From assembly GCF_000715505.1 (NCBI RefSeq), contig NZ_JHEH01000021.1:1-56144 (forward strand): a DNA stretch of 56,144 bases. Reading direction: 5' to 3'. The position numbers were made by a program, and so were the translations under genes. Position 1 is the first letter of the stretch. Each line of letters starts with the position of its first letter. This document shows positions 40,734-49,943 of this stretch, piece by piece. The notes below the pieces were generated by a model that searched no databases, was not told the DNA's origin, and saw nothing but the letters and a program-made list of their open reading frames with translations. Origin of the DNA: Thioclava dalianensis. GTDB taxonomy: Bacteria; Pseudomonadota; Alphaproteobacteria; Rhodobacterales; Rhodobacteraceae.

Positions 40734-41569
40734 GCGCTGAGCACCGCATCGCGCAAAGCGTCGGTCACCTCCGGGCGCTGACCAAACCAGCGCTCAAACC
40801 CGGGCACTGCCTGATGCAGCAACATCCCCAGCCCATCGACCACGACGCAGCCTGCCTCTTCGGCATCGACAAGGAACCGGGTGCGCAGCGGCGAATAAAC
40901 GAGATCGCAACAGGTGGTCCCGGGGCTGAGCGCATCCAGCGGCACCCGGAAATCGGCCTTCCCGGTCATCCCGAGCGAGGTCGTGTTGACCACGGTATTC
41001 GCGCCCTCGATCATATTTCCGGCCTGCACCCAGTCATAGACGACAACGCGCGCGCCAAATTCGGTGCGCAAAGCCTCAGCCCGCGCGCGCGTCCGGTTGG
41101 AGATGCGGATTTCGGGAGCGCCGGTTTCAAGAAGCGAGGCCACAATGGCGCGCGCCGCACCACCGGCCCCCAGCACCGCTGCCGGTCCAGCGCCTGCCAC
41201 CCAATTGGGCGCATGCTGGTTGAGATTGGCAATGAAGCCATATCCATCGGTATTGTCGGCGTGGATCTTGCCATCGGCGCGCAAAATCAAGGTATTGGCC
41301 GCACCAATCAGAGCTGCGCGATCCGAGACGACATCGGCAATCTCCAAGGCGCGCTCTTTATGCGGGATCGTGATGTTGACGCCCACAAAACCCATCCGGG
41401 GCAGGGTGCGCAGAACCGTTTCAAGATCGGCCTGATTGACGTCGAGCGGCACGTAATGCCCCGCGATGCCGTAGCTGTTGAGCCAATGGCGAAAGAGAGC
41501 AGGCGAGCGCGAATGTGCAATCGGCGAGCCAATCACGCCTGCGACAGGTATCCGGGGATGATCGCTCAT
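40730..41569 (-). CDS. aroE: Shikimate dehydrogenase
   Basis: A 279-residue NADP-dependent enzyme reducing 3-dehydroshikimate in aromatic amino acid synthesis. [17 protein letters not shown] binds shikimate, VNITIPHKE contains the catalytic Lys, [13 protein letters not shown] follows with the catalytic Asp, and the NADP loop is [12 protein letters not shown] with [11 protein letters not shown]. Start ATG at 41569 overlaps the maf stop (ATGA); the longer in-frame start lies inside maf. Confidence 0.96.
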
Positions 41570-42159
41570 GTGCTCAGCTCTCCTCGTGCGCGTAGCCAAT
41601 TGAGAAATTCGATCAGGGGCAAGCCCAGGACCGCAAAGTAGTCGCCTTCGACGCGCGAGAAAAGCCGAACGCCTTCTTCCTCCAGCTTATAGCAACCGAC
41701 GCTGTGACGAATGCTATCCCAATTGCGCGCGACGTAATCTTCGATGAACGCCTCGCTCAGCTCATGCATGGTGAGGCGCACCTCGCCGACATGGCGCCAA
41801 AGCGGCTCACCATCGCGCATCGCTACCAGCGCAGACAGCAGCTTATGGCGCTGGCCGGACAGGGCGCGCAGCTGATCGCGCGCGATCTCGGGTGTCTCGG
41901 GTTTGGACAGGATCTGCCCCTTGAGATCAAGCACCTGATCGGCGCCAAGGACAAGCGCCCCCGGTGTGCGCAGGGAAATCTTACGTGCCTTCATCTCAGC
42001 GAGACAATCAGCGACGTCGCGCGGAGAGGCGGATTCCGCCTCGAACCCGGCACGAATGCCGTCCTCATCGATGCGGGCGGGGCGTATCTCCAGAGACAGA
42101 CCGGCGTTGCGCAAAAGCTGGGCGCGGATCTCGGAGGCGGAGGCGAGAAGGATGTTCAT
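41566..42159 (-). CDS. maf: Maf-family nucleoside triphosphate pyrophosphatase
   Basis: A 197-residue Maf/HAM1-like protein that hydrolyses non-canonical or modified nucleoside triphosphates. [17 protein letters not shown] opens the fold, [13 protein letters not shown] and [14 protein letters not shown] include the conserved basic and acidic residues, and [31 protein letters not shown] closes it. It is the first gene left of the proposed origin, with its ATG 5 nt from the first perfect DnaA box, and heads the leftward unit. Confidence 0.93.
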
Positions 42160-42540
42160 GACTATGTGGATAACCGGGCGCAGAACCTATGGGATGAAAT
42201 GGGGCATAACCCGGATGTGGAAAGATCTCCACCGAAACGAGCGTGTTCCACGGCTGATCCACGGAGTTCATCCACCTGTGGAACGCAAATTTGGTCTGCT
42301 GTGAAAAATTCGGTGAATCCCCATTTCATCCCAAGAGTTATCCACAGAATTTAAGCTTGTGAGGATAAAATTTTTGATTTTTTTACAGAAACTTAGGAGA
42401 TTTCTGGCGGAGAGGGTCACGACAGTTATCCCAAAGACCGGATCTGTGGAAAAGTACTGAACAAAGTGTTAATCCACACTATCCACAGGGCCTACATCAT
42501 CATCATCTTTTCAATACTTATATATAATTATTAAGAAGAG
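42160..42540. other. oriC: Probable chromosomal replication origin (oriC)
   Basis: About 380 nt of non-coding DNA dense in DnaA boxes. Perfect TTATCCACA occurs at 42338-42346 and, in reverse, at 42165-42173. One-mismatch boxes are TGTGGAAAA (42445-42453), TAATCCACA (42470-42478) and, directly abutting it, CTATCCACA (42479-42487). Weaker candidates include 42216-42224, 42255-42263, 42268-42276 and 42426-42434. Two AT-rich tracts, at about 42361-42393 and 42508-42538 (TATATATAATTATTAAG), could be the unwinding element. Gene directions diverge from here, and parA-parB plus two parS sites lie within 8 kb. No dnaA gene is nearby, which is common in alphaproteobacteria. Confidence 0.85.
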
Positions 42541-42560
42541 CTTGTGGCATTGGAGGCGAC

Positions 42561-43025
42561 ATGACCGATTTTCTGAGCAACTGGTACCCGTGGATCAAGG
42601 CATTCCACGTCATCGCGATCATCACCTGGATGGCCGGGATTTTTTATCTCCCCCGACTGTTCGTCTACCATGTCGAGGGCCTTAAAAAGCAGGGCGTTCC
42701 ACGTGGATCGGATATGGATCTTTTGTTTCAACACCAGGAACGGCTGCTGCTGCGCGCGATCATGAACCCCTCGATGATCGCGGCTTGGGTCTTTGGGCTC
42801 ATGCTTGTGGCCACGCCGGGCATCGTGGATTGGTCGAGCATCTGGCCTTGGACCAAGGCGCTGGCGGTGCTCGGGATGACTTGGTTTCACATGTGGTGCG
42901 CGAAAGAGCGCAAAGCCCTGGCTGCAGGAACTTCGACGAAAACCGGCCGTCAGTACCGCATGATGAACGAAGTGCCGACGATTTTGATGCTCGTGATCGT
43001 AATCTCGGTCTTCGTGAAGTTCTAA
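42561..43025 (+). CDS. hemJ: Protoporphyrinogen oxidase HemJ
   Basis: A 154-residue, four-helix inner-membrane protein oxidising protoporphyrinogen IX to protoporphyrin IX in heme synthesis; HemJ replaces HemG/HemY in most alphaproteobacteria. Signature features are WIKAFHVIAIITWMAGIFYLPRLFVYH with two membrane-facing His residues, and WFHMWCAKERK and MNEVPTILMLVIVISVF toward the end. A TGGAGG site lies before the ATG. It is the first gene right of the proposed origin. Confidence 0.92.
   Translation: MTDFLSNWYPWIKAFHVIAIITWMAGIFYLPRLFVYHVEGLKKQGVPRGSDMDLLFQHQERLLLRAIMNPSMIAAWVFGLMLVATPGIVDWSSIWPWTKALAVLGMTWFHMWCAKERKALAAGTSTKTGRQYRMMNEVPTILMLVIVISVFVKF
42695..42710. promoter_or_regulatory. 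Degenerate parS-like sequence in hemJ
   Basis: CGTTCCACGTGGATCG matches the parS consensus TGTTNCACGTGNAACA at 13 of 16 positions, with the central GTTCCACGTGGA intact. It lies in hemJ near the origin and may be a weak or decayed ParB site. Confidence 0.3.
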
Positions 43026-45749: not shown

Positions 45750-47621
45750 GTGTTTCACGTGAAACATTACGACGTCATCGTTATTGGCGGCGGTCACGCC
45801 GGAACCGAAGCGGCACATGCCGCGGCGCGGATGGGTGCTGCGACGGCTCTGGTCACCTTGCGGCTTGAAGCGCTGGGTGTGATGTCGTGCAATCCCGCGA
45901 TCGGCGGATTGGGCAAGGGGCATCTTGTGCGCGAGATCGATGCGCTGGATGGTGTGATGGGCGAGGCGGCCGACCGTTCGGGTATCCAGTTTCGCTTGCT
46001 CAATCGTCGGAAGGGTCCCGCCGTGCAGGGGCCGCGAACTCAAGCGGATCGCGCGCTCTATCGCGAGGCTATTGGTACGCTGACCGCGGCGCAGGATAAT
46101 CTTGATCTGATCGAAGGCGAAGTGGCTGATCTCAAGATTTCGGAAGGCCGCATTTCTGGCGTGATCCTAGCGGATGGCTCGGAGATTTCTGGTCGTACGG
46201 CCATTCTGACCTCTGGGACATTTCTGAACGGCGTCATGCATATTGGCGATCAGCGGAAATCGGGCGGTCGTATCGGCGATAAGCCATCGGTCGCGCTGGC
46301 GGACCGTCTTAAGGGCCTGGGCCTCCCGCTCGGGCGGTTGAAAACCGGCACACCGCCGCGCTTGGATGGGACGACAATCGATTGGGGCCGCCTTGATAGC
46401 CAGCCTGGCGACGATGATCCGACGATGTTTTCCTTCCTGAATACGCGTCCTTTCGTACGTCAGATTTCTTGCGGAATCACCCATACGAATTCGCAAACTC
46501 ATGATATTATTAGGGAAAACCTTGGACGTTCGGCTATGTATGGCGGTCATATCGAGGGGGTCGGTCCTCGCTATTGCCCGTCGATTGAGGATAAGGTGGT
46601 CCGGTTTGCCGATAAGGAATCGCATCAGATTTTCCTTGAGCCAGAGGGGCTTAACGACACTACGGTCTATCCAAATGGCATCTCGACATCGCTCCCGCAG
46701 GACGTGCAGGAAGCTTATGTCCACTCGATCATTGGTCTTGAGGCAGCACGTATTTTGCAGCCGGGCTATGCGATCGAGTACGACTATGTCGATCCGCGCG
46801 CTTTGGACCTGACGCTTCAGCTTCGCGATCTTCCGGGCTTGTATCTTGCCGGGCAGATCAACGGGACGACGGGCTATGAAGAGGCGGCGGCGCAAGGTCT
46901 CGCCGCAGGTTTGAATGCGGCGGCTGCAGCGAAGTCGCTTGATCCGGTCCACTTCAGTCGAACCGATAGCTATATCGGGGTGATGATTGATGATCTGGTG
47001 ACGCGCGGCGTGACCGAGCCTTATCGCATGTTCACCTCACGCGCGGAATTCCGGCTATCTCTGCGTGCCGATAATGCGGATCAGCGTCTGACGCCGATGG
47101 GGCTTGGTCTTGGCTGTGTCAGTGAAACGCGTCGGGCGTGCTTTGAGGAAAAGATGGAGGCTTTGGAATCGGGGCGCAAGTTGATGGAGGGGATCACCCT
47201 GAGTTCGACGCAGGCGCGCGCGAAAGGTTTTCATATCAATCAAGATGGATCGCGCCGCAGCCTATTGCAGCTTTTGTCCTTCCCGGACATCACGATGGGT
47301 GCATTGCAAAAGGCGTTCCCCGAGATCGCCGGTATTCCAAATGATATCGGGGATCAGCTCGCAAGAGATGCGCTCTATGCCAATTACACCGCCCGACAAG
47401 AGCGCGATGCTGAGTCGATCAAACGCGATGAGGGTTGGGCGCTCCCGGCTGATTTCGATTATGATGGCTTGATCGGTTTGTCGAACGAGCTGAAGGGAAA
47501 GCTGAAAGCAGCACGGCCTCAGACGCTGGGGCAGGCGGCGCGGGTGGATGGCGTAACTCCAGCCGGGTTGACGCTGCTCCTTGCGAAATTGCGCCAGATC
47601 AAGAAGGCTAAAGTTGCATGA
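45750..47621 (+). CDS. mnmG: tRNA uridine-5-carboxymethylaminomethyl(34) synthesis enzyme MnmG (GidA)
   Basis: A 623-residue FAD enzyme, partner of MnmE. FAD motif [21 protein letters not shown] is near the N-terminus; [22 protein letters not shown], the two Cys-containing GSTFLNG-like and GRIGDKPS regions, and the C-terminal helical domain binding MnmE are present. A parS site is superimposed on the start: GTG at 45750 (MFHVKHYDV) or GTG at 45759 (MKHYDV) are both in it. The second has AGGAG at optimal spacing, the first is the longer form. Its stop overlaps rsmG (ATGA). Confidence 0.97.
45751..45766. promoter_or_regulatory. parS: parS centromere site over the mnmG start
   Basis: TGTTTCACGTGAAACA, a perfect 16-bp palindrome equal to the universal chromosomal parS consensus bound by ParB. 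It overlaps the mnmG initiation codon(s), encoding FHVKH, so the N-terminal residues are dictated by the site. About 3.4 kb from the origin and 3.3 kb from parB. Confidence 0.95.
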
Positions 47622-48244
47622 GCCGTTCGGAAGCGGTTTTTGCAGAGCGATTCGATGTTTCACGTGAAACATTAGAGCGCCTCTCAAACCTCGAAGCGCT
47701 GATCAAAAAGTGGAATCCGACGATCAATCTCGTCGCGCGCTCGACGCTGACAGATATCTGGTCACGGCATTTCGCGGATTCGGCTCAGATATTCTCCTTT
47801 GCTCCCGAAAATTCGGATCACTGGGCAGATTTCGGGGCGGGTGGCGGTTTCCCCGGATTGGTTGTCGCGATATTGGCCTTGGAAACCCGGCCCGAGCTTC
47901 AGATCTCACTCGTCGAATCGGATCTGCGCAAGTCGGCCTTTCTTGGAACGGCTATCCGTGACCTTGGTCTCTCAGCGCGTGTAATGGCCGAGCGCATCGA
48001 AGACATCGCACCGCTTGACTGTGACGTTCTGAGCGCACGGGCTTTGGCACCTTTGCCAAAGTTACTTGGGTTTTCTGAAGGTCACCTGCGAGAGGATGGC
48101 GTGGCGCTGTTTCCAAAAGGGGCGCGTTGGCAAGAAGAGGTTGCGAGCGCCCGGGAAAACTGGTCCTTTGACATCGAGAGCTGGCCGAGCCAGGTCGATC
48201 CGAATGGCAAAATCCTTAAAATTACCGGAGTACGGCGTGTCTGA
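47618..48244 (+). CDS. rsmG: 16S rRNA (guanine-527-N7) methyltransferase RsmG (GidB)
   Basis: A 208-residue SAM enzyme methylating G527 of 16S rRNA; loss gives low-level streptomycin resistance. Key elements are [23 protein letters not shown], the SAM loop [17 protein letters not shown], the [11 protein letters not shown] strand, and [13 protein letters not shown] parS site lies in codons 13-18 (DVSRET). Overlaps mnmG at its start and parA at its end by 8 nt. Confidence 0.96.
47656..47671. promoter_or_regulatory. parS: parS centromere site inside rsmG
   Basis: A second perfect TGTTTCACGTGAAACA, within the coding sequence of rsmG (encoding DVSRET), 1.9 kb from the first and 0.6 kb before parA. 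ParB bound here nucleates spreading that compacts the origin region. Confidence 0.95.
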
Positions 48245-49052
48245 TCCGATTCGCGCGAATGAAGCCAGAATTATTACCATCGCCAATCAGAAGGGCGGGG
48301 TCGGGAAAACGACGACTGCGATTAATCTCGCCGCCGCATTGGCTGAAGCGGGTGAAAAAGTTCTCCTGATCGATCTCGATCCGCAGGGGAACGCCTCGAC
48401 TGGCTTGGGGATCGAAGCGGATGATCGCGACGTCAGCACATATGAATTGCTGTTGGAGGATGCGCCGATCGGTTCGGTCGTTCGTGCCACAGAGGTCGAA
48501 AATCTGTTCTTGTGCCCGGCAACGACAGATCTTTCCTCGGCTGATATGGAACTCGTTTCGACCGAAAAGCGCAGCTTTCTTCTGCATGATGCCCTACGAC
48601 ATACAGACATAGACAACTTTGAGTTCACCTATATCTTGATTGATTGCCCGCCATCTCTCAGCCTTTTGACGGTGAATGCGATGGTGGCTGCGCATTCCGT
48701 ATTGGTGCCGCTTCAGGCTGAGTTTTTTGCCCTTGAGGGTCTTTCGCAACTGATGCTGACGATCCGCGAGATCCGGCAAAGTGCGAACAGGTCTTTGCGG
48801 ATCGAAGGGATTGTTTTGACCATGTATGATGTACGCAACAACCTGTCTCAGCAGGTCGAAGCGGATGCGCGCAATACACTGGGCGAGCTTGTTTTCCGGA
48901 CGATGATCCCTCGAAATGTGCGGATATCCGAGGCCCCGTCTTACGCGCAGCCGGTTCTGAGCTATGATGGAAGTTCGCGCGGCGCCGTGGCCTATCGCGC
49001 GTTGGCGCAGGAGTTGGTCGCGCGCCACAAGGCCGCGAAAAAGGGAGCCTAG
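48237..49052 (+). CDS. parA: Chromosome-partitioning ATPase ParA (Soj)
   Basis: A 271-residue deviant Walker ATPase that moves ParB-parS complexes during segregation. The signature KGGVGKTT (Lys19 and Lys24 from the GTG start) gives the ATP sandwich dimer; [16 protein letters not shown] and [18 protein letters not shown] follow, and [18 protein letters not shown] is typical of chromosomal ParA. The GTG at 48237 has GGAG 8 nt upstream and overlaps rsmG by 8 nt; longer in-frame forms lie inside rsmG. Confidence 0.95.
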
Positions 49053-49055
49053 TCG

Positions 49056-49943
49056 ATGGCAGAAAAACGAAATGAGCGCCGTGGGCTCGGTCGTGGTTTA
49101 TCCGCTTTGATGGCGGATGTGGATTTGACTCCTGCGAGCGAAGAAGAAGCGCCGCGCCGCGCCGAGCAATTCATTCCCATTGAGCGGCTGGAGCCCAATC
49201 CTGATCAGCCCCGGCGTGATTTTGAACCCGGTGCGCTGGAGGAACTCTCAGCTTCGATCCGGGAAAAAGGCGTGATCCAACCGCTGATCGTGCGCGCCCA
49301 TCCCAAAAAGCCGGATCATTTCGAGATCGTGGCGGGGGAGCGTCGCTGGCGGGCGGCACAAATGGCGCAGCTTCACGAACTTCCTGTTATCGTTCGTGTT
49401 TTTGATGACACTGAGGTGCTTGAAGTTGCGATCATTGAGAATATTCAGCGTGCTGAGCTGAACCCTCTCGAAGAAGCGCAGGCCTATCGTCAGTTGATGG
49501 AGCGGTTTGGGCATACGCAAGAAAAGCTGGCCGAGGCTTTGTCGAAAAGTCGCAGCCATATTGCCAATTTGATGCGGCTTTTGCAGCTTCCTGACGAGGT
49601 GCGTGAGTATTTGCGCGAAGGCAAGCTGTCGGCGGGACACGCTCGAGCGATGATCACGGCGAGTGATCCGGTGGCGCTCGCGCGTCAGGCTGTCGCGAAA
49701 TCGCTTTCGGTGCGCGATGTCGAGCGTTTGGCCAAGAAGCCGAGCGAGAAGGCAGAACGCGCGCCGCGTCCTAAACCCCAGAAAGATGCGGATACGCGGG
49801 CGCTTGAGAGCGATCTGTCCGCGACGATTGGCATGAAAGTTGCAATCGATCACAGCGATCAGGGCTCAGGCAAGGTTTCTATCGCCTATTCCGATCTCGA
49901 TGAGCTTGATCGCTTGTGCCAGCTGTTGAGCGGCGGGCGATAA
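49056..49943 (+). CDS. parB: Chromosome-partitioning protein ParB (Spo0J)
   Basis: A 295-residue CTP-dependent DNA clamp that loads at parS and slides outward. The N-terminal RRGLGRGLSALM motif contacts ParA; NPDQPRRDF and GERRWRAAQM (Gly94 on) form the CTP-binding fold; the helix-turn-helix that reads parS is near KLAEALSKSRSHIANLMRLLQLP; and the C-terminal dimerisation domain ends the protein. parA lies 3 nt upstream. The gene ends exactly where the convergent DUF454 gene ends, without a terminator between. Confidence 0.96.
   Translation: MAEKRNERRGLGRGLSALMADVDLTPASEEEAPRRAEQFIPIERLEPNPDQPRRDFEPGALEELSASIREKGVIQPLIVRAHPKKPDHFEIVAGERRWRAAQMAQLHELPVIVRVFDDTEVLEVAIIENIQRAELNPLEEAQAYRQLMERFGHTQEKLAEALSKSRSHIANLMRLLQLPDEVREYLREGKLSAGHARAMITASDPVALARQAVAKSLSVRDVERLAKKPSEKAERAPRPKPQKDADTRALESDLSATIGMKVAIDHSDQGSGKVSIAYSDLDELDRLCQLLSGGR

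Follow-up and report, generated by a model that had tools for sequence, protein, structure and literature searches.

The maf–hemJ intergenic gap of Thioclava dalianensis as a putative chromosomal replication origin with an apparent BUS layout

An oriC region next to maf is recorded in DoriC as conserved in Rhodobacteraceae (PMC4793288). The oriC of Ketogulonicigenium vulgare (DoriC/Ori-Finder, PMC4793288) resembles the locus described here in being intergenic, in adjoining maf and in having been predicted from DnaA boxes and base asymmetry; it differs in that the lines of PMC4793288 devoted to it give a coordinate and the maf neighbour but no inner elements. Ori-Finder located the origins of 101 Rhodobacteraceae chromosomes (PMC6699656) and was applied to 179 alphaproteobacterial genomes (PMC8116508), and both GC skew and Ori-Finder were used for Rhodobacter sphaeroides (PMC6315104). 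The original prediction held that origins are rarely mapped in this lineage, which may be right for experiments but not for computed origins, given those 101 published chromosomes. It also offered the order maf-[origin]-hemJ-rho as a landmark; this layout was indeed found, but since adjacency to maf had already been published (PMC4793288), the claim of a fresh landmark is weakened.

Two further systems are close to this locus. The hemE-type origin of Caulobacter, Sphingopyxis and Hyphomonas (PMC4741004, PMC6650430) likewise lies between a maf-aroE-coaE and a hemJ-rho-mnmE-gidA block. Here, however, hemE and hemH are not found between origin and hemJ, and, unlike the Caulobacter origin, the gap is devoid of the CtrA motif TTAA-N7-TTAA. 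The basal unwinding system (BUS) of Bacillus subtilis and other bacteria (PMC6669920, PMC8287927, PMC10721633) shares with our locus tandem co-oriented boxes, a short GC spacer, triplets and an AT tract. It differs in its triplets, which here are mostly 3'-GTA-5' after one 3'-GAT-5', and in its DnaA, whose adenine-reading Asn187 is here replaced by Tyr or Phe. In the literature searched, no paper joined Rhodobacteraceae, oriC and the DnaA-trio, but the supplements of the BUS survey may list such origins; where PMC10797057 and PMC10225481 deal with this subject, they name no alphaproteobacterial trio.

The window, that is the whole stretch of 56,144 nucleotides analysed, corresponds to positions 1-56144 of contig C21 in a 98-contig, 4.18-Mb draft genome. 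To the left of the maf–hemJ gap lie aroE, coaE, a DnaQ-like exonuclease gene and nadA, to the right rho, mnmE, gidA, gidB, parA and parB. The hemE gene of this genome is located on another contig (C7:122769), and it is hemJ, not hemE, that adjoins the putative origin. The closest HemJ matches among the best 80 of 315 confirmed stretches were from Thioclava. Neither an Rfam match at gathering score nor a tRNA was found in or near the gap. The features are as follows.

41566-42159, minus strand: maf (profile/domain match)
42160-42560 (401 bp), no strand: putative oriC, the entire maf–hemJ intergenic gap (box cluster, lowest GC, synteny, skew minimum in relatives)
42165-42173, minus strand: perfect DnaA box TTATCCACA, beside the maf start codon (motif; identically placed in all 15 same-genus gaps)
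42190-42204, plus strand: inverted repeat, left arm, perfect 15 bp, TGGGATGAAATGGGG (repeat search)
42268-42284, no strand: convergent DnaA-box core pair TCCACCTGTGGA, mid-gap (conservation)
42319-42333, minus strand: inverted repeat, right arm, perfect 15 bp (repeat search)
42338-42346, plus strand: perfect DnaA box TTATCCACA (motif)
42360-42368, minus strand: one-mismatch DnaA box TTATCCTCA (motif)
42445-42453, minus strand: one-mismatch DnaA box TTTTCCACA (motif)
42470-42478, plus strand: one-mismatch DnaA box TAATCCACA, first of the apparent BUS tandem pair (motif, conservation)
42479-42487, plus strand: one-mismatch DnaA box CTATCCACA, second of the apparent BUS tandem pair (motif, conservation)
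42488-42491, no strand: GC spacer GGGC of the apparent BUS (sequence)
42492-42510, minus (complementary) strand: triplet array of the apparent BUS, 3'-GAT-GTA-GTA-GTA-GTA-GAA-5' (triplet analysis, relatives)
42505-42545, no strand: AT-rich tract beside the triplet array, 80% AT, likely unwinding element as judged from base composition
42561-43025, plus strand: hemJ (match; NCBIfam score just under cut-off)
45751-45766, no strand: parS, perfect (motif match)
47656-47671, no strand: parS, perfect (motif match)
48066-49052, plus strand: parA, ParA-type ATPase domain (domain match; true start probably inside the frame)
49056-49943, plus strand: parB (ParB match)

The gap held six DnaA boxes with at most one mismatch where 0.15 were expected from dinucleotide shuffles, and none of 2000 such shuffles reached six. 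These are 6 of the 11 boxes of this quality in the window, and the boxes at 42165-42173 and 42338-42346 are its only perfect ones. The 4.18-Mb genome contains only 18 perfect boxes; the two in the gap are 173 bp apart, whereas the next closest perfect pair is separated by 3.8 kb. With a GC content of 0.436, the gap contains the lowest-GC 400-mers of the window. The elements foreseen in the original prediction were recovered where it had placed them: two perfect boxes, at least three one-mismatch boxes including the back-to-back pair at 42470-42487, an AT-rich non-coding gap, whose GC content proved to be the lowest in the window, and two AT-rich tracts, which we delimited to 42350-42400 (75% AT) and to the tract at 42505-42545. 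Similarly, parA, parB and the two parS sites, expected within 8 kb, all lie within about 7.4 kb according to the coordinates of their matches. Simple patterns were used for other control elements. The CtrA pattern, absent from the gap of the window, occurred in 6 of 80 gaps (best 80 of 315), an IHF-like site was not matched in the window's gap and was matched in 15 of the 80 (best 80 of 315), and GANTC was present once in the window's gap. Caulobacter-type control elements do not appear evident in the gap from these patterns.

Conservation was assessed on 80 gaps, namely that of the window and those of 79 of the best 80 of 315 confirmed stretches (hereafter the best-80-of-315 set). In 79 of 80 related loci of the best 80 of 315, maf and hemJ pointed away from each other across a gap of 385-506 bp; the sole exception, L067, reached its contig end before maf and was left out. 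In additional loci the gap measured 370-435 bp, with the exception of L214 (1235 bp). All 15 same-genus gaps had perfect boxes at positions 6 and 178-179, spaced by 172-173 bp. Perfect boxes were not kept family-wide, being absent from 45 of 80 gaps (best-80-of-315 set) and from the gap of the complete relative G018, while at least two boxes with 0-1 mismatch were found in 75 of the 80 (same best-80-of-315 set). The core TCCAC occurred 395 times in the 80 gaps (best 80 of 315) against 64 in mononucleotide shuffles, and each of the 66 loci spanning 20 kb or more among the best 80 of 315 had at least two parS sites with 0-1 mismatch. Over 16 aligned sequences, the most conserved blocks of the gap formed the segment 42460-42519, with a mean identity of 0.82-0.88 as compared with 0.48-0.78 for the remaining full 20-bp blocks. 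The comparison across relatives that the original prediction had called for was in its favour: both the gap and a cluster of boxes within it are kept in the genus and in the family. The gap of L108 (G055) has a GC content of 71% and yet keeps the box core and a ATCATCATC triplet array.

Farther afield, we compared 20 regions around hemJ matches: 16 came from genomes outside the family, 2 from distant members of it, and 2 were weak matches. The divergent maf/hemJ pair was kept in 15 of them, 12 of which had at least two boxes within 450 bp between the genes; in L206, L208 and L212 maf was absent within reach. The two weak cases, L217 (G017) and L218 (G035), are family genomes whose best HemJ match lies outside the maf–hemJ neighbourhood and shares no gene with it; hemJ may have been lost or replaced in both. 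In L201 the order was maf, kinase-PPPase, box cluster, hemE, hemH, hemJ, rho, and in L210 it was maf, box cluster, hemE, hemH, hemJ, rho. Since hemE and hemH stand between origin and hemJ in these two outgroups and hemE resides on C7 in the present genome, the origin of the family looks like a contracted version of the hemE-type origin known in other Alphaproteobacteria (PMC6650430, PMC4741004), with hemE and hemH lost.

Two further elements were noted inside the gap. The inverted repeat TGGGATGAAATGGGG, whose arms might pair as a hairpin, is unique in the genome at 0-1 mismatch, and 7 other Thioclava-group sequences kept 9-12 of its 15 pairs at the same offset. Over the 8 sequences, two-sided changes affected 7 repeat pairs; slid controls gave 1-3 such pairs, and a count of 7 was reached in 14 of 500 shuffles. 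Taken sequence by sequence, the complementarity of the arms was conspicuous in just two cases, the window (0 of 500 shuffles) and L002 (2.8%), the other six sequences falling at 10.8-54.8% of shuffles. TGGG repeated at 10-bp spacing within the repeat resembles an MraZ operator. This reading was dropped, the exact motif being absent from the other gaps compared (partial in L003, looser in a few) and having no second copy in the genome with up to one mismatch. The convergent core pair TCCACCTGTGGA overlaps a block (42260-42279) of 0.78 mean identity and has many positions invariant among the 16 close relatives; convergent box cores were present in 17 of 80 gaps (best-80-of-315 set).

A minimum of cumulative GC skew at the gap had been proposed as a check, and we looked for it in G018 (scanned from −81 to +99 kb) and G060 (−121 to +86 kb), relatives that share this gene pair and whose genomes are complete. 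In 500-bp bins, the local minimum lay 1.7 kb from the hemJ start in both, downstream in G018 and upstream in G060, which favours the original prediction. In 4-kb bins, with the 3 kb holding the G018 gap left out, the minima were at −2.5 kb (G018) and −3.4 kb (G060). They are shallow: −2319 against −2256 at +14.7 kb in G018, and −2154 against −2116 at −13.7 kb in G060. Of the stretches of G018 sampled upstream, 9 of 11 had a negative skew, the two exceptions (+0.002 and +0.005) lying beside dnaA, and all 9 sampled downstream had a positive one. The Thioclava relatives G007 and G010 had a weak skew that changed sign near the locus without a sharp switch; in G007 it stayed close to 0 between −127 and −47 kb and was +0.020 at −7 kb, and in G010 three stretches on the negative side were slightly positive. 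In the 35-56 kb part of the window the cumulative skew was lowest at 42.0 kb, while over the whole window its value at 0.5 kb (3) was below that at 42.0 kb (35). A dif-like site was detected in two of the six genomes searched; counted from hemJ, it lies 52.8% of the way around the one chromosome and 45.5% around the other, positions that do not discriminate between hemJ and dnaA as the site of the origin.

The segment 42460-42519 contains TAATCCACA and CTATCCACA abutting one another, the spacer GGGC, CTACATCATCATCATCTT (a CTA-CAT-CAT-CAT-CAT-CTT array) and then the AT tract. On the complementary strand the array can be divided in two ways: with a G at the head of each triplet it starts 4 bp from the nearest tandem box and shows one box-proximal GAT followed by four GTA, a departure from the BUS consensus 3'-GAT-5'; in the middle-adenine register it reads 3'-TAG-5' four times plus AAA at 42496-42510, 8 bp from the box. 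The polarity of the array strand is presumably the same as in B. subtilis. At least three C-(A/T)-(A/T) triplets followed a box in 62 of 80 gaps (best-80-of-315 set), compared with about 6.9 of 80 when the last 75 nt were shuffled; 18 gaps fell short. In those 62 gaps (best 80 of 315), the middle base of the trio strand was T in 188 and A in 71 of 259 triplets, and the third base A in 200 and T in 59; because this test requires a C in every triplet, it says nothing on conservation of the G, for which only an anchored profile is informative. Runs of at least three NTN were found in 42 of 80 gaps as against 3.8 of 80 in shuffles, with 38 falling short (best-80-of-315 set). The phase profile was built on the 45 of 80 gaps (best 80 of 315) that could be anchored on CTA, the other 35 being dropped because no CTA occurred 2-7 nt after the box core. 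Over the four triplets after CTA in these 45 gaps (best 80 of 315), the trio-strand G was kept in 82, 67, 80 and 67%, the middle T in 78, 71, 76 and 49% and the third-place A in 56, 62, 71 and 64%, so that the lead of the G over the other positions is small. Relatives mostly keep a G at every third base, T taking the place of the A of the standard motif. Of 10 outgroup origins in which hemJ lies 2-4 kb from maf, 3 had an array of at least three triplets after a box (0.15 of 10 in shuffles) and 7 did not. Tandem boxes, spacer, array and AT tract together seem to form a BUS layout with deviant DnaA-trios, as far as function can be read from the letters. A promoter reading of the AT tract was discarded, as there was no sigma-70 match and, of the 80 gap tails examined over 180 bp, just 2 contained TTGACA (best-80-of-315 set).

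The residues of DnaA that contact the trio, among them the adenine-reading Asn187, are named in PMC10721633. We aligned the DnaA of the window's genome with the B. subtilis protein as it stands in 8BTG, a structure of the BUS. Among the base-capture residues, Glu183 and Glu228 were identical, Ile190 (Val), Ile193 (Leu) and Arg202 (Lys) were conservatively exchanged, and Asn187 was replaced by Tyr; Asn196, also named as a trio contact, was Lys. In 62 alphaproteobacterial DnaA loci from as many genomes (8, plus 54 of 55, G064 having no DnaA match at 1e-40), position 187 was Tyr in 59, Phe in 3 and Asn in none, while positions 183, 202 and 228 were Glu, Lys and Glu in all 62; the B. subtilis protein was the sole one with Asn187 in the comparison. 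The DnaA of L108 (G055) is one of the three with Phe187. In G014, contigs C1 and C2 carry eight further weak DnaA-domain matches in repeated copies, which are probably transposon helper ATPases.

We consider it almost certain that the maf–hemJ gap is the replication origin of the main chromosome, as originally predicted; this is supported by the box cluster, the conserved gap and the skew minimum in two relatives. Origins are near dnaA in many bacteria, and the gap might then serve only for DnaA titration or as a promoter region. The records carrying dnaA begin within about 0.8 kb of that gene in 4 of 8 genomes, but this is convention, not evidence. Within 3.5 kb of sequence surrounding dnaA, this genome has no box with 0-1 mismatch, and each of seven others has 0-1. 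Furthermore, dnaA is 67 kb from hemJ in G060, within the scan, and 82 kb in G018, where the scan ends about 1 kb before it, far from the skew minima beside hemJ; an origin at dnaA is hence hardly credible. It is somewhat less far-fetched, but still unlikely, that the array and the AT tract serve hemJ expression as a promoter or leader and that the replication elements are the left boxes only. The array indeed ends 50 bp ahead of the hemJ start codon, and of the 61 gaps (best-80-of-315 set) with at least two consecutive ATC, 54 have the run 47-88 bp before hemJ, the remaining 7 (best 80 of 315) having it at 116-348 bp. However, the region 42100-42700 contained neither a sigma-70-like promoter match nor an Rfam match at gathering score, the array follows directly on the tandem boxes and forms with them the best-conserved unit, and 3 of the 10 outgroup origins keep an array after a box with hemJ at 2-4 kb from maf.

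How the array is read is the more delicate question. That it is a fully standard DnaA-trio set, 3'-TAG-5' four times plus AAA at 8 bp from the box, is a serious possibility that falls somewhat short of probable. The published rule asks for at least three 3'-NAN-5' within 16 bp of a box (PMC8287927), and five are found here in one register. The longest middle-adenine runs were also in the TAG register, runs of at least three being present in 25 of the 45 anchored gaps against 2 of 45 in the GAT register (best-80-of-315 set). On the other hand, retention of the phase-setting G (67-82%) slightly exceeded that of the TAG-register adenine (56-71%) in the same 45 gaps (best 80 of 315), and 3'-TAG-5' is not the consensus 3'-GAT-5', one copy of which adjoins the spacer in the other register. 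We tentatively put forward, as possible but doubtful, that Rhodobacteraceae, and perhaps all Alphaproteobacteria, use a G-anchored DnaA-trio (3'-GTA/GTT/GAT-5') whose middle adenine would no longer be read because their DnaA has Tyr or Phe instead of the adenine-binding Asn. The contacts to the G of the trio (Lys202, Glu228) would be retained. Such a trio agrees with the combined loss of the middle adenine and of the Asn that reads it, but since the residue change is class-wide and only 3 of 10 outgroups have a clear array, this is no real test of co-variation. A point against G-anchored reading is the outgroup G100, with Phe187 and yet a CTACTAC array. The authors of the BUS survey suspected a 'deviant DnaA-trio' (PMC8287927), and a G-anchored trio would be of that kind.

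With the gap taken as the origin, DnaA would bind the boxes spread over its left part and the tandem boxes at 42470-42487. From the latter, a DnaA filament would be laid onto one strand of the array at 42492-42510, the duplex would open into the AT tract, presumably toward hemJ, and the helicase would be loaded there. ParB, bound at the two parS sites 3-5 kb from the gap, would separate the copied origins.

In conclusion, the origin of this lineage is narrowed to about 400 bp, roughly 70 bp of which can be named as the likeliest to be opened first. If the deviant reading of the triplets is true, the single-strand code of DnaA can change between bacterial classes, and this would bear on the 15% of surveyed origins in which no trios were recognised (PMC8287927).
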